A stretch of 64,000 nt of DNA from Chloroflexota bacterium (lineage in GTDB: Bacteria; Chloroflexota; Anaerolineae; B4-G1; SLSP01), in the NCBI GenBank assembly GCA_029555965.1, contig JAKQHY010000136.1, positions 1 through 64,000 of the forward strand, given 5' to 3'. Shown in pieces: positions 5,328 to 54,081 of the stretch. Below the pieces are notes generated by a model. That model was not told where the DNA came from and did no database searches. It saw only the letters and a program-made list of their open reading frames with translations. Position numbers and translations under genes: made by a program. The stretch's first letter is position 1. The number at the start of each line of letters is the position of its first letter.

Positions 5328-5440
5328 CGCCGTAGTAATTACCCTTGCCCCGGCGCGGCGGGACGGTGACGGGCAGGGTAGGGGAGCCGGAGCTCCGGCC
5401 AGGGACTTACCCGCGTAAGTCCCTGGCCGCAACCCCGGCT
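5328..5440 (-). promoter_or_regulatory. Structured leader RNA, copy A
   Basis: Read on the minus strand this is one of six related elements. In order it has GCCG-GGUU-GCGGC; a stem AGGGACUUAC / GUAAGUCCCU; GGAGC with a UCCG tetraloop and GCUCC; a long stem ACCCUGCCC / GGGGCAAGGGU enclosing GUCACCGUCC; then AAUUACUACGGCG. It ends about 40 bases before the start of 4844..5287. Copies at 9903, 20722 and 23028 keep the same order with compensating base changes in the stems. It could be a regulatory or stabilising 5' leader. Confidence 0.65.
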
Positions 5441-5447
5441 AAGTTGC

Positions 5448-9902: not shown

Positions 9903-10012
9903 AGCGCCGTAGTAATTTCTCCCCCGGACGGCGCGGCGGACGGTGACGCCGGGGGGAGCCGTAGCTCTGGCTAGGGCATTACGAGCGTAATGTCCTGGCC
10001 GCAGCCGCGGCA
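9903..10012 (-). promoter_or_regulatory. Structured leader RNA, copy B
   Basis: On the minus strand it reads GCCGC-GGCU-GCGGC, stem AGGACAUUAC / GUAAUGCCCU, GAGC-UACG-GCUC, then the stem CUCCCCCCGG / UCCGGGGGAG enclosing GUCACCGUCC, then AAUUACUACGGCGCUAC. It ends about 20 bases before the start of 9469..9882. It is the closest relative of copy A (5328..5440), with compensatory changes in the last stem. Confidence 0.65.
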
Positions 10013-10051
10013 CCGGGGCAGTCCTGCCCGACTACCCTATGATCCCAGGAG

Positions 10052-10202: not shown

Positions 10203-10262
10203 GTGTTAAAGCCAGCGATCCGTGATCGTTGGCTTTAACACTCAAAACGTGGGCCGTAGCCC
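10203..10262 (-). terminator. Long hairpin with adjacent UNCG hairpin (B')
   Basis: GTGTTAAAGCCAGCGATC and its near reverse complement form a 17-19 bp stem (10203..10241), followed on plus by AAAACGT and GGGC-CGTA-GCCC (10251..10262). The long stem is nearly identical to A' at 5448, with a change at one position. On minus, TTT follows the stem. Confidence 0.55.
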
Positions 10263-10353
10263 ATTACAGATTTCGGCAAATCATTGCAGATTTCCGCTTT
10301 TCGTGGCGGATTTCGGCAAATCATTGCAGATTTCCACAGATCATTGCAGTTCA
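10262..10353. repeat. Tandem repeat of ATTTCGGCAAATCATTGCAG
   Basis: The unit GATTTCGGCAAATCATTGCA occurs twice, about 45 bases apart, with further partial copies (ATTACAGATTTC, ATCATTGCAG). It fills the space between the stop of the PAPS-reductase-like gene (10356) and hairpin B'. No coding frame is supported here. Confidence 0.55.
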
Positions 10354-10355
10354 GC

Positions 10356-11216
10356 TTATATGAGGCGTAGCTGGAACGGACGTTCCGGGTCGAACAACGT
10401 GGTCATAGCCCGCTGCATCCACCAGGTCCGGCCGGTGGTAGTTTCAAAGTATTCGATGTATTGCCGCAACGCCTGGTTCTCGGCGCGCTGCGCCTGGTGG
10501 CACACGTCGCTCTGCGTCGCGTAGATGCAGAAACGACAGCCGGTGCGCGGGCCGCCCTCGGTGTCCTGGTCGTACATCTGCCAGGGCGTCATTCCCTGCG
10601 CGGCATAGGCCGGGTGCGGGGCGACGGTGTGCGCGTGGAGCGTGCGGAAGATGGCGCGCCGGCTCAGGTCGTGAACCGGCTCCCAATTCCAGGCGACAGT
10701 GCCGTCAGCCCAGCGCAAGCGCGGCCAGAGCGTCGGTTTCCGGGCGCGGCGCGGACTTTCGCCGGCGCGCTCGCCCAGGGCGATGATGAGGTCCGGGCCG
10801 AGTTGGACGCGGTGTTGCCGGAGCCAGGCGTCGAGCAGTTCGATTTTTCCATATTTTGTGCAATACCTGGTGGCAGGACTCGGCGGCCATTTTCGGCGAA
10901 ATGCCAGGTCGGTAACGCCGGCGATGACGCCCGGCGTACCGAGCGGCACGATGTCGGCTTCACTGTGGATGTCGCGGATTTCCCGGCGTTTGACGCTGCA
11001 CCTATCCCCCACCGGCTGGTAGAGGATTTGCTGAGCGACCAGGCGCACGCCGAGGTGGGTACACAGTTGTTGCACGTAGGGCAAGGTCTCTGGCCAATCT
11101 TCGGGGAGCACCTGGTAATGGGCAATGACGCGGGCCGCGCCATAGTGCATGACCAGGCGCAAGAGCATGGCGACGGAGTCCTTACCCCCGCTGAGTGAAA
11201 CGACAATTGGGGGCAT
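10356..11216 (-). CDS. PAPS-reductase-family (adenine nucleotide alpha hydrolase) protein
   Basis: The 286-residue protein starts MPPIVVSLSGGKDSVAM; SGGKDS (residues 9-14) is the PP-loop that binds ATP. Further family features are YCTKYGK, GERAGESPRRARK and a CRFC pair near the C-terminus, where phage and element members carry a metal or Fe-S site. Relatives include PAPS reductase and DndC, the ATP-pyrophosphatase of DNA phosphorothioation; this one is not clearly either. I chose ATG 11216, 17 bp past the upstream stop, over the longer frame to 11375 that overlaps it. It may act in nucleic-acid modification together with the TGT-like gene nearby. Confidence 0.75.
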   Translation of the reverse strand: MPPIVVSLSGGKDSVAMLLRLVMHYGAARVIAHYQVLPEDWPETLPYVQQLCTHLGVRLVAQQILYQPVGDRCSVKRREIRDIHSEADIVPLGTPGVIAGVTDLAFRRKWPPSPATRYCTKYGKIELLDAWLRQHRVQLGPDLIIALGERAGESPRRARKPTLWPRLRWADGTVAWNWEPVHDLSRRAIFRTLHAHTVAPHPAYAAQGMTPWQMYDQDTEGGPRTGCRFCIYATQSDVCHQAQRAENQALRQYIEYFETTTGRTWWMQRAMTTLFDPERPFQLRLI

Positions 11217-14687: not shown

Positions 14688-14837
14688 TAGTAGTGTCCTT
14701 TCTGGTTAGGTTGAGGGTAGGGTATTCGGGTTTAGTGCCTGGGTTCACGGCGCTAAACTGCGGGCAACGGCGGAGTCAGTTCCGTCACTGCCCGCAGTTG
14801 GGCGACGTACAGGTAATTGGCGTGGGGTAGTGAAAAC

Positions 14838-14895
14838 AGGGCTAAAGTCAATGCGTCAGCATTGACTTTAACCCTAACAACGGTGGCCGTAGCCA
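14838..14895 (-). terminator. Rho-independent-like terminator with UNCG hairpin (E')
   Basis: AGGGCTAAAGTCAATGC and GCATTGACTTTAACCCT pair (14838..14875). On minus the stem is followed by GTTTTC. The small hairpin TGGC-CGTA-GCCA (14884..14895) precedes it in transcription. It lies between the stop of 14903..15844 and the head of the next operon. Confidence 0.6.
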
Positions 14896-18870: not shown

Positions 18871-18901
18871 TGATAGTCTCCTTAGTCGAATGGTGAAGTA
18901 A

Positions 18902-19003
18902 GTACAGCCGGAGACCGGACTTCCTGGCCGGAAGTCGGTCTCCGGCCGGGAATGTCATTCAAAATGACAATGTCATTTGACATTGTCATTTTTTGTCATT
19001 GAC
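18902..19003. terminator. Two adjacent inverted repeats
   Basis: GGAGACCGGACTTCC with GGAAGTCGGTCTCC forms a 14-bp stem (about 18907..18942). Next to it, AATGACAATGTCATT and related units (about 18955..19003) give several overlapping palindromes. They separate 18996..19418 from the operon head 18673..18870. Confidence 0.45.
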
Positions 19004-19418
19004 TTTTCAGTGCTGCGCGTAACCAGGCGCTGCGCTGGCCGATGCCCATACCGGCGAGTGGCTCCACTATCTGGCGGTTTGCCAGCAGCGGACGCACCAG
19101 GTCGCAGTACGCGGCGCTGGCCAGGAGCGTCACGGTTTCGTAGCCCAGGCTGTCCAAGCACGGCGCGATCTGCGCCAGCAGTGCCTGGCGTTCCGCCGCA
19201 TTCAGGCGCGGCAGGTACACATCGTAAGGCTCAATGACGTGCTCCGGGTGTACCAGGCCGTACTTGGCCGACAGGATGTACCAGGCGTCAGCGTGGGTTT
19301 CAGCGTAGGCGCGGGCGGCGCGGAACAGCGGCCCGGTGTAGAGGTCTTTGGCCGGCGCCGCGTGCGGCAGTTTCCGCGCGCCGCAGCCAACCAGGATGAG
19401 GCGGGGGAGGCGGTTCAT
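18996..19418 (-). CDS. DUF6884-like protein
   Basis: The 140-residue product has ILVGCGARKLPHAAPAKDLY (about 8-27), YTGPLFRAARAYAE, then WYILSAKYGLVHPEHVIEPY. These are the hallmarks of the small DUF6884 family found in phages and mobile elements, which also resembles a module in archaeosine-type enzymes (inference). The conserved Cys and Lys near the N-terminus suggest a catalytic site. The start at 19418 overlaps the upstream stop by ATGA. With a TGT-like protein in the same array, a link to modified-base chemistry is possible but unproven. Confidence 0.65.
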   Translation of the reverse strand: MNRLPRLILVGCGARKLPHAAPAKDLYTGPLFRAARAYAETHADAWYILSAKYGLVHPEHVIEPYDVYLPRLNAAERQALLAQIAPCLDSLGYETVTLLASAAYCDLVRPLLANRQIVEPLAGMGIGQRSAWLRAALKSQ

Positions 19419-20721: not shown

Positions 20722-20833
20722 AGCGCCGCAATGTCATTCCCACGCGGGCGGCGGCGGGCGGGGCCGCGTGGGGTGGAGAGCCGTAGCTCCGGCCTGGGGC
20801 CTACCGGGTAAGCCCTAGGCCGCAACCGCGGCT
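20722..20833 (-). promoter_or_regulatory. Structured leader RNA, copy C
   Basis: On minus: GCCGC-GGUU-GCGGC, stem with UUAC...GUAG ends, GGAGC/GAGC-UACG-GCUC, then CCCACGC / GCGUGGG, then AAUGACAUUGCGGCG. The last hairpin has a UGCG loop where copies A and B have UACG. It lies about 30 bases before the start of 20367..20693. Confidence 0.65.
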
Positions 20834-20850
20834 ATCACGAAAAAGGGTAA

Positions 20851-20932
20851 AGGGAACAGCAATGAGCTGTTCCCTTCAAAACGTGCGCCGTAGCGCGAAC
20901 TGGGTCCGTAGACCGAACGTGGGCCGTAGCCC
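20851..20932 (-). terminator. Terminator with three tandem UNCG hairpins (C')
   Basis: AGGGAACAGC / GCTGTTCCCT (20851..20875) is followed on minus by TTTACCCTTTTT, a rho-independent pattern. Before it in transcription come three small hairpins at 20885, 20903 and 20921, exactly 18 bases apart: GCGC, GGTC and GGGC stems, all with the CGTA loop (UACG on minus). Confidence 0.65.
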
Positions 20933-23027: not shown

Positions 23028-23172
23028 TCCGCCGAAGATTCCCACGCGGGCGCGGCGGGCGCGGGGGCGTGGGGTGAGGGAGCCGTAGCTCCGGCAGGGG
23101 TTTTACCGGATAGCACTTTCGCCGGTTTCTGCGCTAGTGACCTGGTAAAGCCGCTGCCGCAACTGCGGCCGG
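23028..23172 (-). promoter_or_regulatory. Structured leader RNA, copy D
   Basis: On minus: GCCGC-AGUU-GCGGC, a long variable arm with UUUACC / GGUAAA, GGAGC-UACG-GCUCC, CCCACGC / GCGUGGG, then AAUCUUCGGCGGA. The last hairpin has a UUCG loop. The middle arm is about 40 bases longer than in the other copies. It precedes 22427..22984. Confidence 0.6.
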
Positions 23173-26331: not shown

Positions 26332-27345
26332 TTAGAACGGGGTCGCCGTGGTCGTCTTCGCGGCCTGCAACGCTTTCAGCGCAGCTTCCGCCGCCGTTTT
26401 GACGGTGACGTGTTCCGGCTTCTCGCCGCACCAGTCCACCGTCGCCTTCAGCGCCGCCTCGTCCCCAGCGTCGTACAGTTTGCGAATCGTGCCGCCGGGG
26501 TACTTGGTGGAGTTGAACGGCAAGGCCGCCGCGTAGGGGTCGGTGGCCGGCACGCTGGCCGGGCCAGCGGGCAAGGCGGACTTGGCGGGCGCGCCGGGCG
26601 CGCTGGCGGGCTTGGTAGCCACCGGCGCAGTCTCAGCTTCTTCGGTGCCCGGCACTTCGCCGTCACCGTTAGGGCCGCCCTTGACGCCTTTCCAGGCCTC
26701 GCGCCAGGCGAGGAACTCTGGATGCCGCGCCTCGATGTCATCAGCAATGGCGTCGCCCACGTAGTCGCGGTCGGGGTCAAGGTCTTTGACCAACGCGATG
26801 GGGGTGGCGTAGTTCTGGTTGGAACCACTGCCCACCAGGCGGGTTTCGCCCATCTGCAACTGCATTCCGAAGTACGCGCCGCTGGCCTGGCCTTTGGTGG
26901 CCTTGTTGACGGCGGCCTTGTGCGCCTTGATGGCGTCGCTGGCCTCTTTCGAGTTCGTGCCGGTGGCGGTGATCATCGCCGGGCCGTGGTAGCCCCCGTC
27001 TTCGCCCTTGAAGTAGCCGACGACCTGCAACTTGCCGCGCGCGCCCTCCACGTACTCGTGGAGGCGATTGCCGTCCTTGATCCACGCAAAGCGGGTCACG
27101 ACGGGCGCGAAGGTCAACTTGTCCGTCACGAACACCGGGGTAGCGTCGCCGCTGCGGAAGACGAGGTTGGCGATCTCGCTACCTTCGAGGGCCGCGCCGA
27201 ACACCTCGCCGTAGTCTGCCACCAGCGCGAACTTGCCGTTCTTGGCGCGGGGGTCGAGGTTCTGGCCGTTGTTGACGACCTGGATGAACGGGTAGCTAGG
27301 CCCGTCCGAGTCCTTAATCGGGTTTTCACGATCTTTCCAAGACAT
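26332..27345 (-). CDS. Hypothetical protein with disordered linker, 337 aa
   Basis: ATG 27345 (MSWKDRENPIKDSDGPSYPF) follows TAGGAGA; the frame to 27429 is not used. About 220 residues of folded, beta-rich sequence (YPFIQVVNNGQNLDPRAKNG, VSRFAWIKDGNRLHEY-like stretches) are followed by an Ala/Pro-rich linker and a C-terminal helical domain of about 70 residues (STKYPGGTIRKLYDAGD...). The layout (folded core, long linker, terminal domain) resembles ssDNA-binding or scaffold proteins but I cannot name a family. It lies downstream of a large structured RNA region. Confidence 0.7.
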   Translation of the reverse strand: MSWKDRENPIKDSDGPSYPFIQVVNNGQNLDPRAKNGKFALVADYGEVFGAALEGSEIANLVFRSGDATPVFVTDKLTFAPVVTRFAWIKDGNRLHEYVEGARGKLQVVGYFKGEDGGYHGPAMITATGTNSKEASDAIKAHKAAVNKATKGQASGAYFGMQLQMGETRLVGSGSNQNYATPIALVKDLDPDRDYVGDAIADDIEARHPEFLAWREAWKGVKGGPNGDGEVPGTEEAETAPVATKPASAPGAPAKSALPAGPASVPATDPYAAALPFNSTKYPGGTIRKLYDAGDEAALKATVDWCGEKPEHVTVKTAAEAALKALQAAKTTTATPF

Positions 27346-28161
27346 AGTTGTGTGTCTCCTAAGTAGAGTGTACCCAGGAGCGCAGCTACGGCGCAGCGCC
27401 GGCTTCCCCACCGGGAAGCGCCGTAGCACGTTCCCAGGGGGATGTCGGGGTAACCGCCCCGTAGCGGTTTAAAACAAAAAACAGCAGCTACCACACAGGG
27501 GCGCGCGGCGGGACCCCGCTCCGCTAAACGGGAGACGGCGGTGCGCCGGCGCTACTCAGGGGAAGGGCCGCGCCTGGCGCGGCAGAGTGAGTGCTGTGGG
27601 TGCTGCTGTTCGCAGGTAATAGCCGCAAAGTGGGCGGCGAGGATCACAGTCGGGCGGCTCTCACGCCCCACTGAATGCGGCCAAACCCGGGAATGGGGGG
27701 GCAGGGGAGGCAGGCAGGTCGGGGGAGAGCGGCCCAAAGTGAAAAACAGCCCGGCGGTGCGTCGCCGGAACTGATCAGGTCATTCCCAACGGGACGCACG
27801 ACCGGGTGAAGCCATGGGGCAATGGCCCACCAGGTTAATCCGGGTGGGCCCACCGCGTCAGCTAACTATCAGGCTGCTCCGCGCCTGACAGAGGAGGGCG
27901 TCACCCACAGCCGAAGCTGCGGATGCTTAGTCATCAGGTCAGGGGAGCCGCCCGGTTGGTCGCCGGGTATCCAATGCGGAGACCCAGGGTTAAGCGCAAC
28001 AGCCGTGAGCTGTGCTCACGGCGCTGCGGTGCATCATAGCTCTAAGAATATACACTTGTTAAGGTTCCCGGCCTTACTCCTGTAACGCCGGGGGCAGCTC
28101 CGCAGCCTTGATGACGCTGCCCAACGTGGGCCGTAGCCCTGGGGCATTGCTCGGTCTAGCT

Positions 28162-28220
28162 GGTGGCGTAGCCCCGGTCTGGCGACTACCAGGTAATCGC
28201 CAGGCCGCGACCGCGCCGCC
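28162..28220 (-). promoter_or_regulatory. Leader-core element, copy G
   Basis: On minus: GGCGCGGUCGCGGCC, stem UGGCGAUUAC / GUAGUCGCCA with a 3-base loop, GACC, then GGGGC-UAC-GCC. The stem bases differ from copies A-D but pair, and the UUAC / GUAG inner end is kept. Confidence 0.55.
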
Positions 28221-28510
28221 GGGGGGAGAGAACGGTAGCAGTCAGGGAGGAGGGCTGACTGCTACCGGGAACTGGGGCCGCAGCCCGCAGTGGGTGACGA
28301 TCAGACACTTGACCCGGCGCTGAGTCGTCACCGCAGGTGCAGGAGGAGGAACGGAGCATGTAGCCCCAGGTACGGGGTCAGCGTACCGGGGCGCAGGTCA
28401 GGGCTGAGGAGGTGGCAGCCCCTGGCTAAAACGCGGACGATGCCGCGCCTTAGCCAGAGACTGCCGCCACTCGTCCTGCGACCAACTCCGTGCCTGCTCC
28501 AAACCCACGC

Positions 28511-28570
28511 ATGGGGCCGTAGCCCCGGTCAACGGTCTACCGACGTAAACCGCTGGCCGCGACTACGGGA
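28511..28570 (-). promoter_or_regulatory. Leader-core element, copy H
   Basis: On minus: GUAGUCGCGGCC, stem AGCGGUUUAC / GUAGACCGUU with a short loop, GACC, then GGGGC-UACG-GCCCC. It is the first structure after the stop of the KH-domain gene. Confidence 0.55.
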
Positions 28571-28622
28571 GCCAGTGGGCTGGGGCGCCGGCCGGATACC
28601 GGCGCCCCACCGGAGTTAACGC

Positions 28623-28898
28623 CTACTCCACCAATTCGACGCTGGCGCGCATTTCGTGCTTGGCAGCGAGCAGACCGGCCAGGGTGCGGATGGCGTTGAT
28701 GGTGCGCCCTTGCTTGCCGATGATGCGGCCCATGTCGTCAGGATGTAAGGTCAGGGTGACCTCCACCTTCTCTTGCTGCGTCTGCGCGTCCACATTCATC
28801 GCAGCCGAGACCGTGACCTCGTCCGGGTGATCGGCGAGGGCTTTGACGATGCCCTCCACCAAATTGCCAATTTGTATCTGCACTGGGTTGACGTTCAT
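28623..28898 (-). CDS. KH-domain RNA-binding protein (KhpA-like)
   Basis: The 91-residue protein has the KH signature DDMGRIIGKQGRTINAIRTL, with the GKQG nucleic-acid-binding loop at residues 61-64, the size and sequence style of KhpA/YlqC proteins. ATG 28898 follows AGGAGG. KhpA proteins bind RNA, often with KhpB. Its place directly upstream of a 1.28 kb structured non-coding region is suggestive: it may bind these RNAs (inference). Confidence 0.85.
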   Translation of the reverse strand: MNVNPVQIQIGNLVEGIVKALADHPDEVTVSAAMNVDAQTQQEKVEVTLTLHPDDMGRIIGKQGRTINAIRTLAGLLAAKHEMRASVELVE

Positions 28899-29330
28899 TG
28901 CTTGTAACCTCCTGGGTAAACTTAACGTCGTAAAACTATGCTGCTAAACTAGGGCGTACAACGGGCCTTGTATGGCGCTTCTGCGCCCCAAACTACCCCC
29001 AAACCCCCGTTTTTCAGGGGTGGATCTCACTTGAAAAACGTCGCAAAACGTTTTTAGGATCAGTTATCTACTGTCATATAATTATGACTGAGTATTACAT
29101 ATTGTGAAATATGGATTGTATCAAGCTTCTACCGCATCCCCCTCTATGTCCTCAGTCACTCTGCCCATAGCCGGCCCTGCTCATACGGCGGGATGTCGGC
29201 CGGCGACCGCGCCAGCGGCAAGACGCGCCGCCGCCGGTCACGGATCGGACGTGGTTTGTGCGCGGGGCGCGGCCGCAGCAATCCCGGCCACAGTTCGCCC
29301 TGGCAATAGGCCCCTGGCGCAGCCGCCGCT
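28899..29330. other. Intergenic region with AT-rich regulatory patch
   Basis: No gene is supported. The stretch 29030-29130 is strikingly AT-rich for this replicon. It includes AAAAACG / CGTTTTT (29034..29057), the palindrome GTCATATAATTATGAC (29073..29088) and, on minus, TTGATA about 19 bases before TGTAAT (about 29124 to 29094). A promoter for the KH-domain gene with an operator is likely. Confidence 0.5.
29073..29088. promoter_or_regulatory. Palindromic operator candidate
   Basis: GTCATA, four bases, TATGAC: a perfect 6-bp inverted repeat just downstream of the putative -10 of the leftward promoter. A dimeric repressor site is the natural reading. Confidence 0.45.
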
Positions 29331-35577: not shown

Positions 35578-35886
35578 CTAAAAAGTCAAACCAGACGCCG
35601 GGCGCCCGTTTTGCTGTAATGCCAACGTGACCGTGGGTAAATCGTCAATGATAAACACATTGCTACACCGCTGGCGCGGCCACACCGCCAGCAGCACATC
35701 CCCGTCGCGCCAACGCGCGAGTAACCGGCGCTTATCCGGGAGGGTCTGGGCCAGATAGAGATTGCCGCCGGGCGTCACCAGGAGGAACGGCGTGGTAGGC
35801 GCACCGTAGGGAAACTCCGGCTCCAGACTGGCTAACTGGAACCCCCCCGCCTGTAACGCGGTCAATTTCGCCTGACTGCTCACCAT
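35578..35886 (-). CDS. Hypothetical protein, 102 aa
   Basis: A small soluble beta-rich protein (FQLASLEPEFPYGAPTTPFL, then YLAQTLPDKRRLLARWRDGD). It shares one base with the start/stop of TadC and lies just ahead of the pilin gene. No family is recognised. Confidence 0.65.
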   Translation of the reverse strand: MVSSQAKLTALQAGGFQLASLEPEFPYGAPTTPFLLVTPGGNLYLAQTLPDKRRLLARWRDGDVLLAVWPRQRCSNVFIIDDLPTVTLALQQNGRPASGLTF

Positions 35887-36794
35887 TACCCTCCCAACAC
35901 CTGCATCATCTGCACCGCGCCGGGGGCAATGAGGATCAGCGCTATGGCAATGATGGCGAAGAAGGCCGGGATCACCATCATCACGGCATTTTTGTACCCC
36001 CGCTCAGTGAGGATCAACCGGATGCGGATGCGGGCGTCCTGGGACATCCGCCGCAGCGTTTGGGCAATCCCCCCGCCGCCCATCTCGTAGGCGGCCTTGA
36101 GCCGTTCCGTGACGCGCACGATTTCGGGCAAGCGCCCATTGCGCTCGCCGGCGTGATCCAGCGCCGCGGGAAAGTCGCCGGTGACGGCATACTCGCCGGC
36201 GATCTGGCGCATCTCCGCGATCCACGCGCCGCCCGGTCGTTGCGCCAAATCGCGCAGGGACACCGGCAGAGCATAGCCGGCGGCGACATAGATCGCCAGC
36301 CGGTCGAGGGTGGAGGCCGCGTCGAGCGTCAATTGTTCCTGGCGTTGGGCGATGGTATTGTTGATCGTCTTTTGCGGCATCACAAAGCCCAACGCGCCGA
36401 CGCCCAGGGCTAATGGCAGGACAAAGCCCAATGCGCCCGCGCCGACCAGCAAGGATAGCACCAGGCCAAACAGCCCGACCATCCCCGCGAAGATAGCGGC
36501 AGTGAACAACTGGTAGCCCAGCACATTTTCCGGTGAGGTGAACGGGGACGGATACGCGGCCTGGGCCAGGCGCGTGGCGAGGTCAGTTTGCTGGGCTTGC
36601 ATGTCGCGGCGGCCAATCCGGGACAACCGCTGGGCCGCCGGGACGAAGAAGGTGGTCAACAGCCGGTCGGCCAGCGGGCGCGTATCGGCTTGGAGCAGTT
36701 GCACCCGCGCACGGCGCGGCGCGAGCGCGTTAACGGTTAACACCGCGCCCCCGGCGGCGATTAAGGCGAACAGTAAAATCATTGGGGTAGACAT
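35886..36794 (-). CDS. tadC: TadC-like inner-membrane platform protein
   Basis: The 302-residue product has the type II secretion F-domain layout: N-terminal membrane segment, cytoplasmic helical domain (LDRLAIYVAAGYALPVSLRD, then YEMGGGGIAQTLRRMSQDAR) and C-terminal membrane segment. It follows TadB by 2 bp. TadB and TadC form the platform on which TadA acts. Confidence 0.8.
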   Translation of the reverse strand: MSTPMILLFALIAAGGAVLTVNALAPRRARVQLLQADTRPLADRLLTTFFVPAAQRLSRIGRRDMQAQQTDLATRLAQAAYPSPFTSPENVLGYQLFTAAIFAGMVGLFGLVLSLLVGAGALGFVLPLALGVGALGFVMPQKTINNTIAQRQEQLTLDAASTLDRLAIYVAAGYALPVSLRDLAQRPGGAWIAEMRQIAGEYAVTGDFPAALDHAGERNGRLPEIVRVTERLKAAYEMGGGGIAQTLRRMSQDARIRIRLILTERGYKNAVMMVIPAFFAIIAIALILIAPGAVQMMQVLGG

Positions 36795-36796
36795 GG

Positions 36797-37696
36797 TTAA
36801 GCTCCCTTAGCTCCCACCGGAATCTCTTTGACTTCCAAATCCAGGCCCTTGCTGGCCATGCGGCGGCTCAGAACGTAGGACACGACGGAAAACACCATCG
36901 CGACCAGCACGACGATCTGGCCCAAAGTGGTGCTATAGAACCCGCCCTCATACTCGTGCATCCAGGGGGCGACCTTGACGAGCAGAAAGAAGCCCACCGG
37001 CGCGAGACTGACAATCATAGCTTCCAACCGCGCCTGGCTCTGCTTGGCGGCGATTTCCTTGCGCAGCGCGGTCTGCTCGCGGATCATATTCTCCAGGCCG
37101 AGCAAGACTTCGCCGGCGTTGCCGCCCTGCTGCGCTTTGAGGGTCAGGGCTTCGACGACCATATTCAGGTAGGGGTCGTGACGACGGTCCAGGATGGGCG
37201 CGAAGGCGGCGTCCAGTTCTTCGCCCAGGTCGTGGCGGCCGGCGGCCTCGCGGAAATCGGCGGCGGCGGGGTCGGGGCCGTTGTCTACCGCGTTGCGCAT
37301 GGCGTCGCGCAGCGCGCCGGTGGCCGCAAAGCCCTCGCGCATCAGGGACACCACTTCGGCCAAACTCTCCGCGTAGGCTTTCTTGTAGGCTTCGCGTTTC
37401 CCCTCCAGGCTCTGCCACAAGAGCAGCGGGACAATGACCATGCCCACGAGCGCCAGGACGGGTGTGCCGAGGATCACGGCGATCAGCCCCACCAGTAATA
37501 CGCCGCCCAGACAAGTCAGCGCAAACTCTTTGGCGCTGATCGGTAACTCCGCGGCGGCAAGTTTTTGTTGCAGCCGCATCAGCGGCCCCAGTTGCGCCGC
37601 TTGCAGGCGCGTGGTGCGCGGAAATACCAACGCCGCAAACGCCAGAAAGATGCCGGCGGCGCCGATCAAACCGGGAAGCAGTAACGTGGGATCCAT
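36797..37696 (-). CDS. tadB: TadB-like inner-membrane platform protein
   Basis: The 299-residue product has an N-terminal membrane segment, the F-domain (YAESLAEVVSLMREGFAATG, LGLENMIREQTALRKEIAAK) and two C-terminal segments. It lies between TadA and TadC with 2-bp gaps, the standard tadABC order. Confidence 0.8.
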   Translation of the reverse strand: MDPTLLLPGLIGAAGIFLAFAALVFPRTTRLQAAQLGPLMRLQQKLAAAELPISAKEFALTCLGGVLLVGLIAVILGTPVLALVGMVIVPLLLWQSLEGKREAYKKAYAESLAEVVSLMREGFAATGALRDAMRNAVDNGPDPAAADFREAAGRHDLGEELDAAFAPILDRRHDPYLNMVVEALTLKAQQGGNAGEVLLGLENMIREQTALRKEIAAKQSQARLEAMIVSLAPVGFFLLVKVAPWMHEYEGGFYSTTLGQIVVLVAMVFSVVSYVLSRRMASKGLDLEVKEIPVGAKGA

Positions 37697-37698
37697 AG

Positions 37699-39060
37699 CT
37701 ATCTCCTGAAGAAGCTCTGCATGAGCGGGACGTTACGTTCCTTCATCACGGCCGCCAGGCGTTCCGGGAAGTACCCCGTCCAGGTCATCCCGTGCCCCTT
37801 GTCCTCAAAGATGCTCTGGACAATCACCCGGTCGCCTTCCATATATTGGCTGGGTGAGATTTCCGCGATGTCGGTGACGAAGCGGCGCTGCACGTTGCCG
37901 AGCAGCACCCGCTTGAGGTACAGCACCAGGTTGAAGGCATCGGCGATCTGTCGCCGCACGGCGAGGGTCGGGACTTCGATGCCCTTCATCAAGTACATGG
38001 TCTCCATCCGCTGGATGATGTCGCGGGTGGAGTTGGCGTGGATGGTGAGCATCTGTCCGTCGTGGCCGGTGTTGGCGGCCGCCAAGACATCCACAATCTC
38101 CGGGCCGCGCGCCTCGCCGGTGATGATCCGGTCAGGACGCATCCGCAGCGCCTCGATGACCAGATCGGCCATCGTGAAGGCTTTTGCTTCTTCGGCCTGG
38201 TCGCGGGTGGTGAGTTGCACCACGTCCGGCTTGGTGATCTGAATCTCCGGTGTATCCTCAACGGTCACGAAGCGGTCGCCCTCATTGGCGGCATTGGCCA
38301 GTGCATTAAGGAAATTCGTCTTGCCGGAGGCCGTGCCCCCGGCGATGACGAGGTTGAGCCGCGCCTGCACCGCCAACTCCAAAAAGGCTTTGGCGGCCGG
38401 GGTGATCGTGCCGAGCCGCTCCAGGTCATCCAACGTGCGCGCCACGAGCCGGTGGCGGCGAATGGTGACGGCCATCGGGATGTTGGCGACGAGGGGTTCC
38501 ATAATCGCGTGCAACCGCGAACCGTCGCGCATTTGGGCGTCGAGCTTGGGTTTGGCGCGGTTGATCTCGCGCCCGCCGGCGATGCGGTTGACGAAGTGCC
38601 GCAATTCCTGGCCGTCGCGGAAGCGCGCCGTAGTCTTGACCTTGCCCTGTTGGGCGTGGATCAGCCAGATGTCCCACGGCCCGTTGCAGATGATTTCTTC
38701 AACGGCTTCGTCGTTGAGGTACGGCGCGAGCGGGCCGTAGCCGAAGATACTGTCCAGCATCTCGCGTACCATTGTGCCAGCCTCGAGGGTGACCGTCTCG
38801 CCATTGGCGCGGGCCTGTGCCAGGGCGGTTTCCACCAGGGGCCGGATGATGGCTTCGGCGGTTTTCAAATCCTCCGCTGAGGGATCGTCAATCTGCGCGG
38901 GCGTCAACTGTCCCTGGATGCGGCTGCGGGCTTCGGTGAGCAGGCCGGCGGTGCGGTCGGCAACGGGCTGTTTGGCGACTTGCGCGGCAATGGCGGCGGC
39001 CGCCGGTGAAAAACCGGGGCCGGCCGGGCGGGAGTGGGTAGGACTAAACGGCAGGCCCAT
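37699..39060 (-). CDS. tadA: TadA/CpaF secretion ATPase
   Basis: The 453-residue product belongs to the type II/IV secretion ATPase family: Walker A GGTASGKTNFLNAL (about residue 240), TVEDTPEIQ (Asp box region), RMRPDRIITGEARGPEIVDVL (Walker B region) and GHDGQMLTIHA. It drives pilin polymerisation at the inner membrane. ATG 39060 follows GGGGAGG; a frame start at 39075 is less likely. Confidence 0.9.
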   Translation of the reverse strand: MGLPFSPTHSRPAGPGFSPAAAAIAAQVAKQPVADRTAGLLTEARSRIQGQLTPAQIDDPSAEDLKTAEAIIRPLVETALAQARANGETVTLEAGTMVREMLDSIFGYGPLAPYLNDEAVEEIICNGPWDIWLIHAQQGKVKTTARFRDGQELRHFVNRIAGGREINRAKPKLDAQMRDGSRLHAIMEPLVANIPMAVTIRRHRLVARTLDDLERLGTITPAAKAFLELAVQARLNLVIAGGTASGKTNFLNALANAANEGDRFVTVEDTPEIQITKPDVVQLTTRDQAEEAKAFTMADLVIEALRMRPDRIITGEARGPEIVDVLAAANTGHDGQMLTIHANSTRDIIQRMETMYLMKGIEVPTLAVRRQIADAFNLVLYLKRVLLGNVQRRFVTDIAEISPSQYMEGDRVIVQSIFEDKGHGMTWTGYFPERLAAVMKERNVPLMQSFFRR

Positions 39061-39472
39061 CGGACCCCTCCCCATTGCGTCGCATGGCGGCCCCCCAGGC
39101 GCGCGCCTGGGCGCCGGCGTCCCAGGTCTGGCGCAGCGCGGTCACATACTGCGTCTGCTGCGCCGACGGGAACTGGTGGGGCGTCACAAAGACGTGCCAG
39201 GCGGCGTCCCAGCCCAGAGCGTCCCCAATGACCGCCTGCACGGTGTACAACGTGATCGGCAGCGGCTCCGTCGCCGGGGGCAGTAAGGCCTGGCTGGTGA
39301 GACATTCCCCGACGGCGGGGACGCGCGGCCATTCCCGCCGATCCCACAGGATGCCGTCCAGGTAGAGATACACGTCAAACGCCAGGTAGTTCCCCAGTTC
39401 TGCCAGCGCCGGACACGGGTTGGCCCGTGTCGCCGGTGGGGTGATAGTAATGGTCAAGATGCCCTCAGCCAT
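39044..39472 (-). CDS. Hypothetical protein, 142 aa
   Basis: A soluble beta-rich protein (LTITITPPATRANPCPALAE, then WDAGAQARAWGAAMRRNGEG). It sits between CpaE and TadA and overlaps the start of TadA by 17 bp. No family is recognised. Confidence 0.65.
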   Translation of the reverse strand: MAEGILTITITPPATRANPCPALAELGNYLAFDVYLYLDGILWDRREWPRVPAVGECLTSQALLPPATEPLPITLYTVQAVIGDALGWDAAWHVFVTPHQFPSAQQTQYVTALRQTWDAGAQARAWGAAMRRNGEGSDGPAV

Positions 39473-39482
39473 AGTTGATCTC

Positions 39483-40862
39483 CTAACTCACAAAGGTCTC
39501 TTTGACTTTGCTGAACAGGCCCCCCTTCTTCACCGGGCGTTTGCGCAGCAAGGTATCCAGCGGCGGGTAGAACGTCGCCGCCAGTTTGATTAAGCCCTCG
39601 CCCAACTCGGTCAGGGGCTTCTGCAACGTCAGGGGTTGCCCCTGATTGATGGCGAGACGCGCGGCGTTGGGATCCCAGGGTAACGTCGCTACCACCGGCA
39701 CTTTGCCGCCGAGATATTTGACGACATCCTTCGGGGCAATCCCAAAGGCTTCGTCAAAACCGTTGAGGACGATGCGGAACCGCTGTAAGGTCCCAAAGGC
39801 TTTCTCCAGGGCCGGTAAGATGTTGTGCACGTCACTCAGGGCGGTGCGCTCCGGTGTGACAACGAGCAGCACAGTATCTACGTTGGACAAAGCCGCCCAG
39901 TGGATCGGCATATTGAAGTCCGGCCCGATGTCCACCACGCGGAACTCATAGTAACCCCGCGCCTCGCGCAGGAGGTCGGCGAAGATGTCCAGCGTGCGCT
40001 GCATATCGGCGGTGAACTCCGGCAGGCCGGCCATGTGCATCTGTGGGATGCCGGGCAAAACGGCCAGCTTGTTCTGGTACGGGCGGATGTGCATTTGCAG
40101 CGTTTGGGCGCGCACGACGTAGCGGTTCACGCGCGTCCCTTCGCTGACCACGCGCTCGTAAAAAGAGAACAGGTTGGCCTGCGGCGCCTGGTCAATTTCC
40201 ATCCCCAAGAAAACGTGGGAATTAGCGCGGCTCATATCGCCGTCAATCAACAAGGTGGGGCGTTGGGCAATCGTCCCCAGCGCACAGGCCAGGTTGACCG
40301 ATACAGTGGACTTCCCTGCGCCGCCTTTGGGCGAGAAGACGCCGATACTCTGTTGTTGCCAGCCGCCGCTATCCAGGATCGCCAGCGCGTCTTGGGCGGT
40401 GATGGGGGTGAAGGTGCGGGCAGCGCGTTCGCTGCGGGCGGCGTCCACGCTGGTGCGCACGATGTCGGGCAGACGCTGCACCTGCACGGCGTCCAATGGC
40501 GTGGTGACGAAGCCCTTCATCCCGAAGCGCTGGTACTCCGGCGCATACGTCGAGCCGGCGGGAATCAGACCCACGGCGGCAATGCCGTGTTCTTCGTTAA
40601 CCAGCAATTCCTGGATCAAAGCCGGGTTCATCCCCGGCAAGGTTGGGGAGAACAGGATGCAGTCGGCTTTGTAGCTGCGCGCTTGATCGGCCAGACTGGT
40701 GATGTCGCTGACCAGGGCCAGGATGTTGATCCCGGCTTGCGTCAGCGCCTGGGTCATCAGGGAAATATCTTGCCAGCCGGAGTAGCCGATGACGACCCCC
40801 AGGGCGGTATCCCCGGCGCCGCCCGCTGGGGCCGCCGGAGTGGGATTCGCGGGATTCCACAT
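39483..40862 (-). CDS. cpaE: CpaE-like pilus localisation ATPase
   Basis: The 459-residue product has an N-terminal receiver-like domain (about 1-140), then a MinD/ParA ATPase domain with a full Walker A (FSPKGGAGKSTVSVNLACAL, about 178-197), DIGPDFNMP and LVVTPERTAL. CpaE-type proteins place the Tad machine. ATG 40862 follows AGGAG. Unlike the two smaller MinD-like genes upstream, its P-loop lysines are present. Confidence 0.8.
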   Translation of the reverse strand: MWNPANPTPAAPAGGAGDTALGVVIGYSGWQDISLMTQALTQAGINILALVSDITSLADQARSYKADCILFSPTLPGMNPALIQELLVNEEHGIAAVGLIPAGSTYAPEYQRFGMKGFVTTPLDAVQVQRLPDIVRTSVDAARSERAARTFTPITAQDALAILDSGGWQQQSIGVFSPKGGAGKSTVSVNLACALGTIAQRPTLLIDGDMSRANSHVFLGMEIDQAPQANLFSFYERVVSEGTRVNRYVVRAQTLQMHIRPYQNKLAVLPGIPQMHMAGLPEFTADMQRTLDIFADLLREARGYYEFRVVDIGPDFNMPIHWAALSNVDTVLLVVTPERTALSDVHNILPALEKAFGTLQRFRIVLNGFDEAFGIAPKDVVKYLGGKVPVVATLPWDPNAARLAINQGQPLTLQKPLTELGEGLIKLAATFYPPLDTLLRKRPVKKGGLFSKVKETFVS

Positions 40863-40877
40863 AGGCAATGCTCCTGA

Positions 40878-48710: not shown

Positions 48711-49838
48711 TTACGTTGGTGAATCCATATTAACAGCCAACGCCTCTTGCTCACCTACTGCGCCATGTTGTAGCATTGCATGACGTAATGCCTCTAGATC
48801 GGGCGCTACGCGCATTTCTAAAAGTTGTTGACGTTGTTGCATGTCGAGGGGACGCAGTTTTTGCTCGGCCAACACCAGGGCTGTCAGACGATCTAACACC
48901 GTCTCATCCATTTGCCGGTAGGCGGGAGTTCCCCCCAAGTCTTCCACCCACTGATAAGCATTTTGCGCTATCCGCAAGCCAGCGGGATCAGGATCACACC
49001 AAATCCAGGTAACTAACCCAGGATTCGCAGAGAATACGATGTGTAGGAAGTTGCCCAATGCACTACTTTCTCCGCGTTCAAAGTGCGTTTCCCCGTGCAG
49101 ACAAACCAGAGTTATAGACTGCCCCTGCCAGCGTCGCAGCAGTTCCCACATCGGGTATGGGTTCTCCACCAGCAACAAACGTTCCCCCACACTTGTCAAT
49201 TGCAAGCATTCTACATCCCATGGCCAGAGATAATAACCTGGCGGTATCCAACGTGGTCCCAGGGTGGCTCCTGGATAATAACCAGTCAGGTAACCTCCCA
49301 CACGGACAATGTTACCCGTGTCGCGGTCGGCCGCGTCGGCCTGGACCCAGCAGTCCCCGCGTTCCAATCCCAGGCGATTGACAAGTTGTTCTTGGGTTAA
49401 ACTGCGCCAGTTGTCGAGCCGATGAGAGTCGCCAAATGCCAAGTGTGCCAAAGTCCGCAGTCCTAGCGGGCCATACGCGGCGACGGCAGCCCTACAGCGA
49501 GCTTGATCTTCTACATTGATAATATCGGACGGAGAAGAATCACGCGGCGCCAAATCGGTTGGGCCATAACGACGTAAAAAATCTTCCAGTTGGGGCGCTT
49601 CGATACACCGCGTGATCCATCTCAGTTGCGTTTTGCTTTTGGAGTCTTCCCACCTCACTGCAACCCAGTCTTTTAACTCTTCCAATCCGGCGTGGAAGAA
49701 TTCACGGTCGGCATAGGGGGTAGTATATTCTGGACATAAGCTGGGTTGGAGGCGCACGCGTTGCTGTTGCGTGAGTTTCCATAGCACTATCCAGAACTCA
49801 CGCGATTGTAAATTCCACCAAGCAGAGGGTTTGTTCAT
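48711..49838 (-). CDS. jetD: Wadjet nuclease subunit JetD
   Basis: The 375-residue product has an N-terminal unrecognised half (DUF3322-like position) and a C-terminal Toprim domain (DUF2220-like): LLLVENPYPMW with Glu 225, and WIWCDPDPAGLRIA with Asp 282 and 284. These are the acidic residues of topoisomerase-type nucleases. JetD cuts small circular plasmids after JetABC has loop-extruded them. ATG 49838 follows GGGAGAG; the frame to 49922 passes through a palindrome. It is the last Wadjet gene, 84 bp after jetC. Confidence 0.85.
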   Translation of the reverse strand: MNKPSAWWNLQSREFWIVLWKLTQQQRVRLQPSLCPEYTTPYADREFFHAGLEELKDWVAVRWEDSKSKTQLRWITRCIEAPQLEDFLRRYGPTDLAPRDSSPSDIINVEDQARCRAAVAAYGPLGLRTLAHLAFGDSHRLDNWRSLTQEQLVNRLGLERGDCWVQADAADRDTGNIVRVGGYLTGYYPGATLGPRWIPPGYYLWPWDVECLQLTSVGERLLLVENPYPMWELLRRWQGQSITLVCLHGETHFERGESSALGNFLHIVFSANPGLVTWIWCDPDPAGLRIAQNAYQWVEDLGGTPAYRQMDETVLDRLTALVLAEQKLRPLDMQQRQQLLEMRVAPDLEALRHAMLQHGAVGEQEALAVNMDSPT

Positions 49839-49872
49839 AGGCTCTCCCGATAAATAGGGGTTTGGCGATTTT

Positions 49873-49896
49873 AATTGCATCCTGTAGGATGCAATT
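49873..49896. repeat. 24-bp palindrome, copy 2
   Basis: AATTGCATCC, TGTA, GGATGCAATT between jetC and jetD. It is identical to the copy inside jetC at 52029..52052. Confidence 0.85.
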
Positions 49897-49922
49897 ATGG
49901 AATGAGGGTTGGTGGCCTTCAA

Positions 49923-52900
49923 CTACAACCGGCTTACATACTGCGGCGTATAGTCTTCATGAAAACGCGCTTTGATGTAGCGCGCTCCATCGGAGGCACG
50001 CAATACGTAGACCGTACCGCCCATTACCTCACTCAAGGCAGTATTGCCTGTCGGTGTGACGATTAAGGGCTGTAAGCCCAAGTCAAGCATCAAGCGCACC
50101 CCCTCAGTACCCACAATCGGGGCTTTGCTGAACCCTTCATCAAACGCCAGGATGCGCGGGCGGTCAGGAACATCGCCATAGACTTCAGCCATCGCCGCAA
50201 TAAGCACGATATAGTTGGGTAACTGTTGCTCACCGCCGCTACCGGCCGCGATGTGCTGCGTGAGATTATGCCATCGCACGCCATCTTCAATGCCTTGATA
50301 TTCCACTTGAAAATCATAGTAAAGCGCCGGTTCTAACAGGATTTCACGTACGCGCAATTCCTCTGCCGACAACTCGCTTTCTTCTTTAGCCAGAAAAGCC
50401 GCCAACTGGTCTAAAACCGCGCCGTGGTCGCGGCGTAAATATTCCAACAGCATAGATTCCAATGCGCCGTAATTTCGGATGGCTTCCTGGTACGTCGCTA
50501 AAAGCTCTCTAACTTGCCGCACTAAGATAGGATTGTCTTCACGGAACTGTGGCGGCGCAAACCGATAGCGACGCGAACCAAGTGGCACCTCCTGGATCGC
50601 GCGATTCAGGTTTTTGATCGCGCGGTTATGCGCGTTCGTTAAATTTAACACCCGATCCACGAAATGCCGTACCAGGGCCGCATCTGCGCGTTGCTGGCTT
50701 TCATGGAGTTGAACCCGTAGTTGAGGCAATTCTTGCTCCTTGAAGGTAGTGTAAGCCTGCCAGCAAATTGCAATTTGTGTTTCTACGTTTTCAGTAGCAG
50801 AAGGGGGGTACTGTTCACTTATATACGCTGTAACCTGAGCAGTGAACAGCCTGTACAGGGTATGGGCTTCGTTTTCAGTCATAGTGACGGTACTGGATAG
50901 ACGCGCGATGAGTTCTTCAAGTGTACTTTCTTGCGATTGGTATGTCTGATACGTCGTTTGCCAATCCACCAGACACTTATCTACTTCAGCTTGCTGCACA
51001 GTGAGGCTCATTTCCTGAGCAGCGATTTCGGCAACTGTCTGTGCCAAGCGTTGTTGGAACTGATCCAACCGCTCCTGAATTTGTGCCTGGTCCTTAGCCG
51101 CATTTTCGCGGGCATTCCATAATGTTTGTAAAGGATTTTGATCAATGAACAGAGACCCTTGAGGTTGCGCTGCAATGGCTACCTGGATGGCTTGTAAATC
51201 TGCCTGAATTCGTTCCTGCTCGCGCAACACCTGCACATCACAGATAGCCGTAAAATCCTGCGTCAAACTCTCCAGTGCGGTTTGGTAGCGTTTCACGACT
51301 TGGGCTTCTTGGGTAAGTGTTTGAAGTTCCTGAGCCAATTCCGCAATACGCGCCTGACGTTCTTGCTGCTGGGCCACACGCGCCAGTTGCCCAAATACGC
51401 ATTTGTGTGGTGCTAACGGCGCGTGCCGATAGAGTGTACCTCCGGAAATTTGTAACCCCCGACTGACCACGCGGCTCGCTCGCTCGGCGACTGCGGCGCT
51501 TTCATCGGGCTCCCAACGCCATTGACCGAGATGCAAATTGAGCAAACCACGCGCCAAGGAGTTTGCCGTCTGAATTAACTCGGCCATACTCCCTGGTGGT
51601 ACTCGCTGATATTTTTCAACATCAGAAGGACGTACCAGGTGAATATTCTCAGTTTGATCCCGTGGCAAGTCCCGGTAGATTTGCTGGCAACGCTCAAAGT
51701 CTGTCTCTGGCGGAATCAGTGTCCAACGCCGGGCGCCCAACAACCCTTCAAGCATTCCCTGGGCCACGCTGTCCAGTGCCGTGGTAGGTTCTACCAGATC
51801 GGCCAGGATTGTAATATTGGCAATATGCCCCTGCTCTTCCAGTTGTGTTTTTACATATTCTGCGGCACGTTGTTCCGGTAGTGCCGGACGGCACTCGGCG
51901 ATTTCACGGCGCAGTTGCTGCAACACGGTTTCGCTGTGAGCAATTTGTTCAGCGAGTTTGTTCTCGACGACAGCCAGCCAGCGCTGTAAAGCATTTTGCG
52001 CCGGCCAAATTGAAGTATTCAGCGTAATAATTGCATCCTGTAGGATGCAATTATGGACGATGAACTCTTGCCAGTCGCCCGGCACCGCCAGGTCCAGAGC
52101 TACTGCCAGAGTAGCCATAACGTTCTGCCATGTTTCCTCAAAGTACCGCAGTTGTGCTAAAGCTCGCTGGGAAGCTTCCAACCGCGCGATTACTTGCTGT
52201 AACTCACGTTTGAGTTGCCGTTGTTCACTCAATAATCCACTAAAGGACTGCGCAGCATCTTGGGCGCGCTCATGAGCAAGACGGGCTTGTTGATAAGCTG
52301 TGGTGCAGTGTTGGACTTGTTCTTTCAGATCGTTCAATTGTTGCAGTTCAGCCGCGTAGTGGTTTTTAGCGGTCGCCAACTCTGCTCGTGCATGTTCCAA
52401 TTTGGCTTGGTGGAGGCAGGCAGCAAAAACCGCGTGTTCGTGCTGCTTGTTTTGGTACTGTTTATGAGCATCTATCACAGCTTCCAGTTTTTTCAACTGC
52501 TGTTCAGCCTGTTCGCAACGCACCTGCGCCTGTTGCACCTCATGTACATAGGTGCGCAGCGGTGTCACCTCAATAACTTCACATCCGATTACCAAATCCC
52601 GTACTACGCGCGTCAAGTTACTGGTATCAATGTTGCCCAGCGCGCGGGTTAGAATCTCGAACCAACGTTCAGACAAATTCCCGAGCTTCTGGGCTAATTT
52701 TTGCCGATACTCGGTGGCGCTAGACAGTAAATTCCAGACACCGGGTGCTTGAGTGTGATTCAGATGTTCGCGCAGCTCTTTGAGTTTATACATTTGGTAG
52801 GCGTCGCCTTCGACCGCATACCCCACCAATTCCAAAGATAAGGCACTATCCACCAACAGAAAATTCGCTCTGATTGTGGTGGGGTTGTAATCCCACACGA

Positions 52901-53252
52901 CGCCACACACGAATCGTTTGCCGGTTTTAATATGAGTCCATTCCATCAATACATGGGCTTGCCCGGTATCGGTGCGTTGCGGTTGGCCGTTCTTGTGCCA
53001 GCGAATGTAAGTAGTGACGTGGCGGCTGCTACCTGGGCCGGCCATCGCATTAAAGCGAATTTTGGTTTCGTCGCCCACCAATGCATATAGCCAACCGTCT
53101 AATAGTGTGGTTTTCCCCACACCGGTATCTCCTGAGATGTGCAGGGGTTGGCCCAAAGGGATGTCAATCCGGTGCATTTTAAACTCATGCCAGTTGTAGT
53201 ACTGAATAGCTGTTAACCAGTAGCCGGTTTTATTCGTCGTTTTCAGATTCAT
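49923..53252 (-). CDS. jetC: Wadjet SMC-like ATPase JetC
   Basis: The 1109-residue product has an N-terminal Walker A GDTGVGKTT (residues 41-49), long coiled-coil regions in the middle, the ABC signature SGGEQ (about 1005-1009) and Walker B ILAFDEG (about 1034-1040). It is the MukB/SbcC-type subunit of Wadjet that extrudes DNA loops. No zinc hook is seen. A 24-bp palindrome is inserted in frame at 52029..52052, giving IVHNCILQDAIITL. The ORF is intact. Confidence 0.9.
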   Translation of the reverse strand: MNLKTTNKTGYWLTAIQYYNWHEFKMHRIDIPLGQPLHISGDTGVGKTTLLDGWLYALVGDETKIRFNAMAGPGSSRHVTTYIRWHKNGQPQRTDTGQAHVLMEWTHIKTGKRFVCGVVWDYNPTTIRANFLLVDSALSLELVGYAVEGDAYQMYKLKELREHLNHTQAPGVWNLLSSATEYRQKLAQKLGNLSERWFEILTRALGNIDTSNLTRVVRDLVIGCEVIEVTPLRTYVHEVQQAQVRCEQAEQQLKKLEAVIDAHKQYQNKQHEHAVFAACLHQAKLEHARAELATAKNHYAAELQQLNDLKEQVQHCTTAYQQARLAHERAQDAAQSFSGLLSEQRQLKRELQQVIARLEASQRALAQLRYFEETWQNVMATLAVALDLAVPGDWQEFIVHNCILQDAIITLNTSIWPAQNALQRWLAVVENKLAEQIAHSETVLQQLRREIAECRPALPEQRAAEYVKTQLEEQGHIANITILADLVEPTTALDSVAQGMLEGLLGARRWTLIPPETDFERCQQIYRDLPRDQTENIHLVRPSDVEKYQRVPPGSMAELIQTANSLARGLLNLHLGQWRWEPDESAAVAERASRVVSRGLQISGGTLYRHAPLAPHKCVFGQLARVAQQQERQARIAELAQELQTLTQEAQVVKRYQTALESLTQDFTAICDVQVLREQERIQADLQAIQVAIAAQPQGSLFIDQNPLQTLWNARENAAKDQAQIQERLDQFQQRLAQTVAEIAAQEMSLTVQQAEVDKCLVDWQTTYQTYQSQESTLEELIARLSSTVTMTENEAHTLYRLFTAQVTAYISEQYPPSATENVETQIAICWQAYTTFKEQELPQLRVQLHESQQRADAALVRHFVDRVLNLTNAHNRAIKNLNRAIQEVPLGSRRYRFAPPQFREDNPILVRQVRELLATYQEAIRNYGALESMLLEYLRRDHGAVLDQLAAFLAKEESELSAEELRVREILLEPALYYDFQVEYQGIEDGVRWHNLTQHIAAGSGGEQQLPNYIVLIAAMAEVYGDVPDRPRILAFDEGFSKAPIVGTEGVRLMLDLGLQPLIVTPTGNTALSEVMGGTVYVLRASDGARYIKARFHEDYTPQYVSRL
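52029..52052. repeat. 24-bp palindrome, copy 3 (inside jetC)
   Basis: Same 24 bases as at 49873..49896. It is translated as NCILQDAI in the middle of JetC, without breaking the frame. Confidence 0.85.
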
Positions 53253-53817
53253 CGGCGGTCCCTCCCAATGGTTGTTGGCGCAGCGCTTCCATCCGCTCTA
53301 CGCTCAGGACAATCGCTAAAAACGGAAGAATGGTGATGTAGGTATCACCAGAACGGGGATTGTCCTGGTAAGTCACTAGCTTGCAACGTTTGAGTGTGTT
53401 TAGAATTTCCACCAGGCGGCTGCGGGAGAGGTTCTCTAACCGGCGCCGACAGCGTCGTTCTAGATCATGTATTTCTATTCCGGCAACCATCTGACCTTGC
53501 TGGCGCTGAACCTCCAATTCTTCGCGCAACGCCAATAGCACCACCAGGTTAGCATAACCCCGAATACGGATTAGCCCTTCGTTTTCCGCGTTGACCCAAT
53601 ACATTACCCGCTCTTCCACCCTCAACTCGGCATTCATCATGCTGAAGAAAAAATTTGCCGGTATCGGATGGGTCTGAATGGCTAAAAAGTGTTCCCGGTC
53701 GGTAGGTAGATCCAACTGCAAACTACCTTCGCGCACTAACTTGGACAACCCGGCATGCAGGCGCCCTTGTTCCGTCGGACTGAGATCCGTATAACCTGGC
53801 AAAGAATAGATTGACAT
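53230..53817 (-). CDS. jetB: Wadjet subunit JetB (DUF4194-like)
   Basis: The 195-residue product (MSIYSLPGYTDLSPTEQGRL) has the size and features of the MukE-like kleisin-associated winged-helix subunit: VNAENEGLIRIRGYANLVVL, then DLERRCRRRLENLSRSRLVE. It overlaps jetC by 23 bp. ATG 53817 follows TTGAGGA. The frame to 53847 would run into the palindrome at 53826. Confidence 0.8.
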   Translation of the reverse strand: MSIYSLPGYTDLSPTEQGRLHAGLSKLVREGSLQLDLPTDREHFLAIQTHPIPANFFFSMMNAELRVEERVMYWVNAENEGLIRIRGYANLVVLLALREELEVQRQQGQMVAGIEIHDLERRCRRRLENLSRSRLVEILNTLKRCKLVTYQDNPRSGDTYITILPFLAIVLSVERMEALRQQPLGGTADESENDE

Positions 53818-53822
53818 ATTCC

Positions 53823-54071: not shown

Positions 54072-54081
54072 AGAACCTCCG

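Follow-up and report, generated by a model that had tools for sequence, protein, structure and literature searches.

What could a bacterial genome encode in a stretch of 1.28 kb where no convincing gene was seen? This question was raised by positions 27346-28622 of DNA from a Chloroflexota bacterium, within the whole stretch of 64,000 nucleotides that was analysed (the window, G000:C34:1-64000). The window belonged to contig C34, which was 114.8 kb long and had no detectable terminal overlap. Together with a second contig that carried related sequence (C138, 20 kb), it was binned in a draft genome of 4.9 Mb in 237 contigs, 85% complete. The genes surrounding the stretch were on the minus strand. 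Namely, khpA (28898-28623) was followed by the gene-free stretch and by a 337-aa gene starting at 27345 (26332-27345), whose product had no Pfam or PHROGs family. The wider surroundings on C34 included Tad-type secretion, primase-polymerase and SMC-like genes, and no tRNA was found in the window. The Tad-type pilus/secretion cluster, with T2SSE and CpaE-like ATPases, was located at 35886-40868. Four adjacent minus-strand genes at 48711-54879 resembled a Wadjet-type defence system; one encoded an SbcC/MukB-like ATPase of 1,109 aa according to Pfam, and its neighbours were presumably the other genes of a JetABCD set.

The first-pass annotation had described this stretch as free of genes, and we found no credible reading frame in it. 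The open reading frames were at most 109 aa long and overlapped on both strands, and none contained a Pfam family above the cut-off. Moreover, a second copy of the sequence was present on C138 (1227-2247, minus strand), with 83% identity to positions 27551-28568 of the window (1,018 nt, blastn, E = 3e-289). These were the only two full copies, both from the same draft genome. The indels between them were 1-2 nt long and not multiples of three, every frame had 7-18 stops, and the substitutions showed no third-position excess or codon periodicity. As a coding contrast, the khpA genes of the same two contigs differed by 25 changes at codon position 3 versus 9 and 9 at the other two. The absence of an intact reading frame could also be expected from decayed genes or assembly debris, but such an origin was highly improbable given that the two copies were 83% identical, had compensatory changes and lacked a coding signature. 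Broken genes in particular were rejected in view of the absence of any Pfam remnant or codon signature.

Folding confirmed that the hairpins of this region were unusually dense, as had been claimed initially. The minimum free energy (MFE) on the minus strand was -695 kcal/mol versus -574 +/- 10 for dinucleotide shuffles (z = -11.7), and 180-nt windows had a mean z of -3.4 inside the region versus -0.8 in the rest of the window (p = 6e-6). Extreme hairpins were also seen in two other non-coding stretches, 18901-19080 and 14701-14880 (z of -13.1 and -11.9), which included two long stem-loops in a row. When the two copies were compared on the MFE structure of the window, 20 pairs were changed on both sides, with 6.2 expected if the changes were independent, and 15 of the 20 still paired, versus 0-2 in slid controls. 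Substitutions affected 13% of the paired versus 27% of the unpaired sites. It was concluded that the region very probably encoded a conserved, heavily folded RNA.

The strand of this RNA was approached separately. The plus strand also folded with high stability (z = -10.8), the compensatory counts were alike for both strands and the plus-strand fold performed equally; therefore, the compensatory tests supported selected base pairing and did not by themselves indicate the strand. Over the whole region, G-U versus C-A changes were about balanced and did not separate the strands: helices that occurred in both folds gave 17 versus 17, and further counts were 22 versus 11 and 26 versus 26. On the other hand, the MFE pairs common to both copies numbered 200 of 347 on the minus strand versus 144 of 362 on the plus strand. 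In the conserved core all five one-sided changes passed through G-U, a result that leaned toward the minus strand since the core structure had been predicted on it. Altogether, the direction of khpA, the shared MFE pairs, the G-U changes of the core, the exchanges in the M2 hairpins and the signals around the C138 copy (both described below) spoke for the minus strand. Judging from the sequence evidence, the RNA was likely to be transcribed and to function at the RNA level.

Read in the minus-strand sense, the locus contained a candidate promoter of khpA (TTCACA-16-CATAAT, 29081-29108), a consensus match only, which agreed at 10 of 12 positions. The khpA stop was separated from the RNA by a strong hairpin, TGGGGCGCCGG-7-CCGGCGCCCCA, with a perfect stem of 11 bp (28581-28609). 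Within the RNA, a 26-bp hairpin at 28411-28468 had four G-U pairs, and C-G replaced A-U in its counterpart on C138; a 13-bp stem-loop at 28233-28267, in the interval from an M1 element to the second M2 hairpin, showed a G-C to A-U exchange in that copy. The most conserved domain, with about 90% identity, was a multi-stem core at 27794-27992 with an unpaired AUAGUUAGCUGA; model R1 was made from this domain and matched only its two training copies in the genome. The 3' end was closed by a terminator-like helix, AACAGCAGCACCCACA / TGTGGTAGCTGCTGTT and then TTTTGTTTT, that corresponded to an inverted repeat at 27472-27610 (I1), 88% complementary and present in the MFE fold. This hairpin and its U-tract suggested that the transcript may end near 27472. 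Thus, the limits proposed at first, 27346-28622, were found to be wider than the conserved part, 27551-28568, and than a transcript with this predicted end. Transcription would start at the khpA promoter, read through khpA into the RNA and stop at the hairpin with the U-tract, and would yield a minus-strand RNA of about 1.0-1.1 kb that is structured and non-coding.

Is this RNA a member of a known family? The first-pass annotation had compared its size with GOLLD and ROOL and could match it to no family. Accordingly, the region had no Rfam match at the gathering score, and the matches obtained at E <= 10 were all weak, concerned mostly microRNA-like hairpins and fell far short of their gathering scores. 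GOLLD, ROOL, OLE and group I/II introns (catalytic core or domain V) were rejected as candidates, without an Rfam match even at E <= 10. The original suggestion of a large RNA beside a KH-domain gene was partly supported: the compensatory changes in the second copy and the co-occurrence with khpA spoke for a large, structured, apparently non-coding RNA next to the gene of an RNA-binding protein, but this RNA was neither GOLLD nor ROOL. GOLLD and ROOL RNAs are found in phages or prophages, frequently close to tRNA islands, and assemble into cages made of RNA alone; no protein partner has been identified for ROOL (PMC12286853). The RNA described here was similar to them in size class, dense structure and carriage by an accessory element, but it differed in having a candidate partner gene and hairpins shared with leaders, and in lacking both an Rfam match and a tRNA in the window. 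Its surroundings of Tad-type secretion, primase-polymerase and SMC-like genes also differed from the phage and tRNA-island setting of GOLLD.

Relatives outside this genome were searched for in several ways. There were none in INPHARED or PLSDB by blastn, and none as DNA in 60 related genomes, while 400 genomes of the phylum gave only chance-like matches of 26-50 nt. Model R1 found no relatives among genomes of the class (396) or of the order (48), and model R2 (the M2 hairpin, see below) had no matches in the relatives and phylum genomes. Searches of IMG/VR and GTDB contigs with exact patterns returned nothing, or 16-mer matches without an R1 match. The genome searches used first-look filters of limited sensitivity, so distant homologues may be missed. 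For the 337-aa downstream protein, one further genome of the phylum encoded distantly related proteins (about 42%); the contigs that carried them had no match to R1 or R2.

The gene 5' of the RNA provided the first indication of a possible partner. It encoded a protein of 91 aa (28623-28898, minus strand) with a KH_KhpA-B domain (PF13083, 78.3 bits versus a cut-off of 32.1, E = 4e-22) that included the GxxG loop in the form GKQG; the neighbour had thus been correctly recognized as a KhpA-like RNA-binding protein. Both contigs had a khpA gene 5' of the RNA and on its strand; the two were adjacent on C34 and separated by 11.3 kb on C138. Apart from the RNA, khpA and one M2 match, the two contigs had nothing in common as DNA. 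The two khpA genes were 85% identical over 277 bp (82% at the amino acid level), and this divergence, similar to that of the RNA (83%), fitted joint descent. The third KhpA of the genome was the housekeeping copy from an rpsP-khpA-rimM operon. The element-borne protein belonged to the same family; unlike the housekeeping one, with which it shared 48% aa identity, it represented a second lineage outside this operon. The element type was not found in viral contigs, nor in other genomes of the class at >53% identity and E <= 1e-15. In Streptococcus pneumoniae, KhpA and KhpB were reported to bind tRNAs and sRNAs (PMC7196914). A partial literature search returned no previous description of a large RNA that accompanies an element-borne KhpA. 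Based on the co-occurrence, which is an association, we slightly favoured the view that KhpA partners the RNA, and the two would then act as a ribonucleoprotein (RNP). The presence of a housekeeping KhpA in the same cell counted against this view.

The closest parallel in arrangement was OLE, where a large ornate RNA gene and the gene of its dedicated RNA-binding partner, oapA, are in tandem (PMC9723947). However, OLE is about 600 nt long and belongs to Gram-positive extremophiles, and OapA is a membrane protein rather than a KH protein; our RNA was flanked by khpA and by the gene of a protein that belonged to no known family. The likeness of the khpA co-occurrence to the ole-oapA tandem (PMC9723947) would also suit a free-standing large RNA of the OLE, GOLLD or ROOL sort, with a scaffold or assembly function and KhpA as a folding chaperone; M2 would then be just a stable hairpin that leaders use again, with no regulatory link. 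The size of the RNA and its one strongly conserved domain (about 200 nt) pointed in this direction, and so did the signals around the C138 copy. Namely, a perfect promoter, TTGACA-16-TATAAT, was located 5' of it (L003:2376-2349, minus strand), and an M1 element and a hairpin with TTTTTG, at about L003:1066-1010, provided a terminator 3' of it (the terminator itself at about L003:1050-1010). With its own promoter and terminator signals the C138 copy could form an independent unit. A tyrosine recombinase gene, likewise preceded by a perfect promoter, was located 3' of the copy and its terminator. Nevertheless, M2 was limited to the RNA and to leaders on the same contig, which free reuse explains poorly, and no Rfam family was matched; we considered a free-standing RNA of this kind rather unlikely.

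A strong hairpin with seven U was present at L003 2336-2258 (minus strand), between the perfect sigma-70 promoter and the C138 copy. Unless the polymerase reads through it, most transcripts were predicted to end there with a length of roughly 85 nt; the hairpin would serve as an attenuator or belong to a small RNA of its own, about 85 nt long. Expression of the C138 copy may therefore be conditional. This interposed hairpin, together with the distance of 11.3 kb to khpA, counted against the RNA and khpA being a joint unit.

The second clue to function came from two short hairpins that recurred in the RNA and in the leaders of genes. The first one, M2, had the consensus GGUYGCGGCC...UUAC...GGUA...GRCCGGRGCUACGG and occurred twice in each RNA copy; in the window, copy a was located at 28514-28572 (74.7 bits with model R2) and copy b at 28163-28220 (78.3 bits). 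Model R2 was built from six M2 sites, including these two and the leaders of the genes starting at 20693 (20778-20835, 78.1 bits) and 5287 (5384-5442, 75.3 bits). A search of the genome revealed two additional C34 sites outside the training set, in the leaders of the genes starting at 22984 (23080-23172, 41.5 bits, E = 9e-5) and 9882 (9956-10014, 53 bits, E = 2.9e-7 for the genome), and the remaining matches were opposite-strand mirrors only. Thus, in 4.9 Mb, M2 was confined to C34 and C138. All these hairpins were on the minus strand of the window, and the four leaders had the same order of M2, a GC-rich hairpin, a ribosome-binding site and ATG, with M2 starting 132-188 nt 5' of the ATG. Seven M2 sites contained 17 double-change cells versus 6.4 +/- 1.8 after shuffling, and their covariation score was 0.389 versus at most 0.075 for slid versions. 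M2 varied by G-U/Watson-Crick exchanges in the minus-strand sense.

The other hairpin, M1, had the form NNNC-UACG-GNNN followed by ACGUU or similar, and preceded long stem-loops, often near gene ends. Its short core (GGGCTACGGCCC + ACGTT/CAGTT) was found inside the region at 28139, as the exact motif GGGC-UACG-GCCC + ACGUU (28123-28139), and at 28286 as a UGCG variant, GGGC-UGCG-GCCC + CAGUU (28270-28286, with UACG in the C138 copy, L003:1963), both on the minus strand. With up to 1 mismatch, the 17-nt core had 6 sites in the genome, all on C34 or C138 and in one orientation. The two copies of a leader core that the initial reading had noticed inside the stretch corresponded to the two M2 hairpins, with the M1 core also inside, and the recurrence of M2 and M1 in the RNA and in leaders indicated that this element was real. 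Three tandem UACG-tetraloop hairpins (GGGC/GGUC/GCGC), each with ACGUU or CAGUU directly after it, were seen at 20880-20932 (minus strand), 5' of a long stem-loop, and short repeats (AATGATTTGCCGAAATCTG and variants) at 10262-10380, from a gene end to an M1 element. Integron attC sites were dropped by eye, as most M1 sites had no R-box consensus.

These hairpins helped to evaluate two other explanations. The similar behaviour of both strands in stability and compensatory counts, as well as the tyrosine recombinase gene beside the C138 copy, could indicate an element that acts as DNA, such as a palindrome-rich origin, a recombination site or a cluster of mobile palindromic repeats. Such an element was improbable, however, because every M1 core and M2 copy had one orientation that matched the genes, M2 outside the RNA began 132-188 nt 5' of start codons, and M2 varied through G-U on the minus strand. 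M2 also differed from palindromic repeats of the REP or MITE type in its single-strand orientation, its restriction to two contigs and its tie to gene starts. Alternatively, M1, a long hairpin and M2 could divide the region into a chain of untranslated linker modules, giving two or more RNAs, possibly through processing by RNase III, or just long UTRs. Long perfect hairpins are typical substrates of RNase III, and those seen here would suit it; moreover, the order M1, long hairpin, M2 was found at gene boundaries near 5.5, 10.2, 20.9 and 23.2 kb as well as inside the RNA at 28286-28163. We regarded the linker chain as unlikely, since the pieces between linkers were themselves conserved (about 90% in the core) and non-coding, and since the whole 1 kb was kept as a unit on C138, where the surrounding genes of C34 were absent.

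Returning to a structured RNA that partners KhpA, its likeliest role would be control of the M2-led leaders, given the two M2 copies in the RNA and the M2 hairpins that open four leaders. In CsrB/CsrC and RsmY/Z, decoy RNAs repeat a CsrA-bound hairpin that is also found in mRNA leaders. The logic proposed here was similar, and copies of the RNA hairpin were indeed found in candidate target leaders (two M2 in the RNA and four in leaders). On the other hand, the present system had a KH protein instead of CsrA, only two M2 copies and a far larger RNA. KhpA, or another factor reading M2, would bind both the RNA and the four leaders, and the RNA would then serve as a hub or decoy for M2-led mRNAs, by analogy with CsrB and CsrA. 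Such a role would account for the occurrence of one hairpin both in the RNA and in the leaders, although our analysis left it possible rather than probable; C138, which had no M2 leader outside the RNA, counted against M2-mediated control. The complete reading, in which the structured non-coding RNA and the element-borne KhpA form an RNP that controls M2-led leaders, was put forward tentatively.

If this reading is true, an accessory element of this bacterium would have its own regulon run by a large RNA. Large structured RNAs of bacteria are few and their functions are mostly unknown. The RNA described here had a candidate partner gene 5' of it on two otherwise unrelated contigs, as well as candidate targets marked by a shared hairpin, and its function is therefore directly testable. 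A new class of element-encoded RNP, in which an RNA of ~1.1 kb and its own KhpA control the mRNAs of the element via a shared hairpin, was a doubtful proposal at this stage, but with it the KhpA proteins would gain a dedicated RNA.
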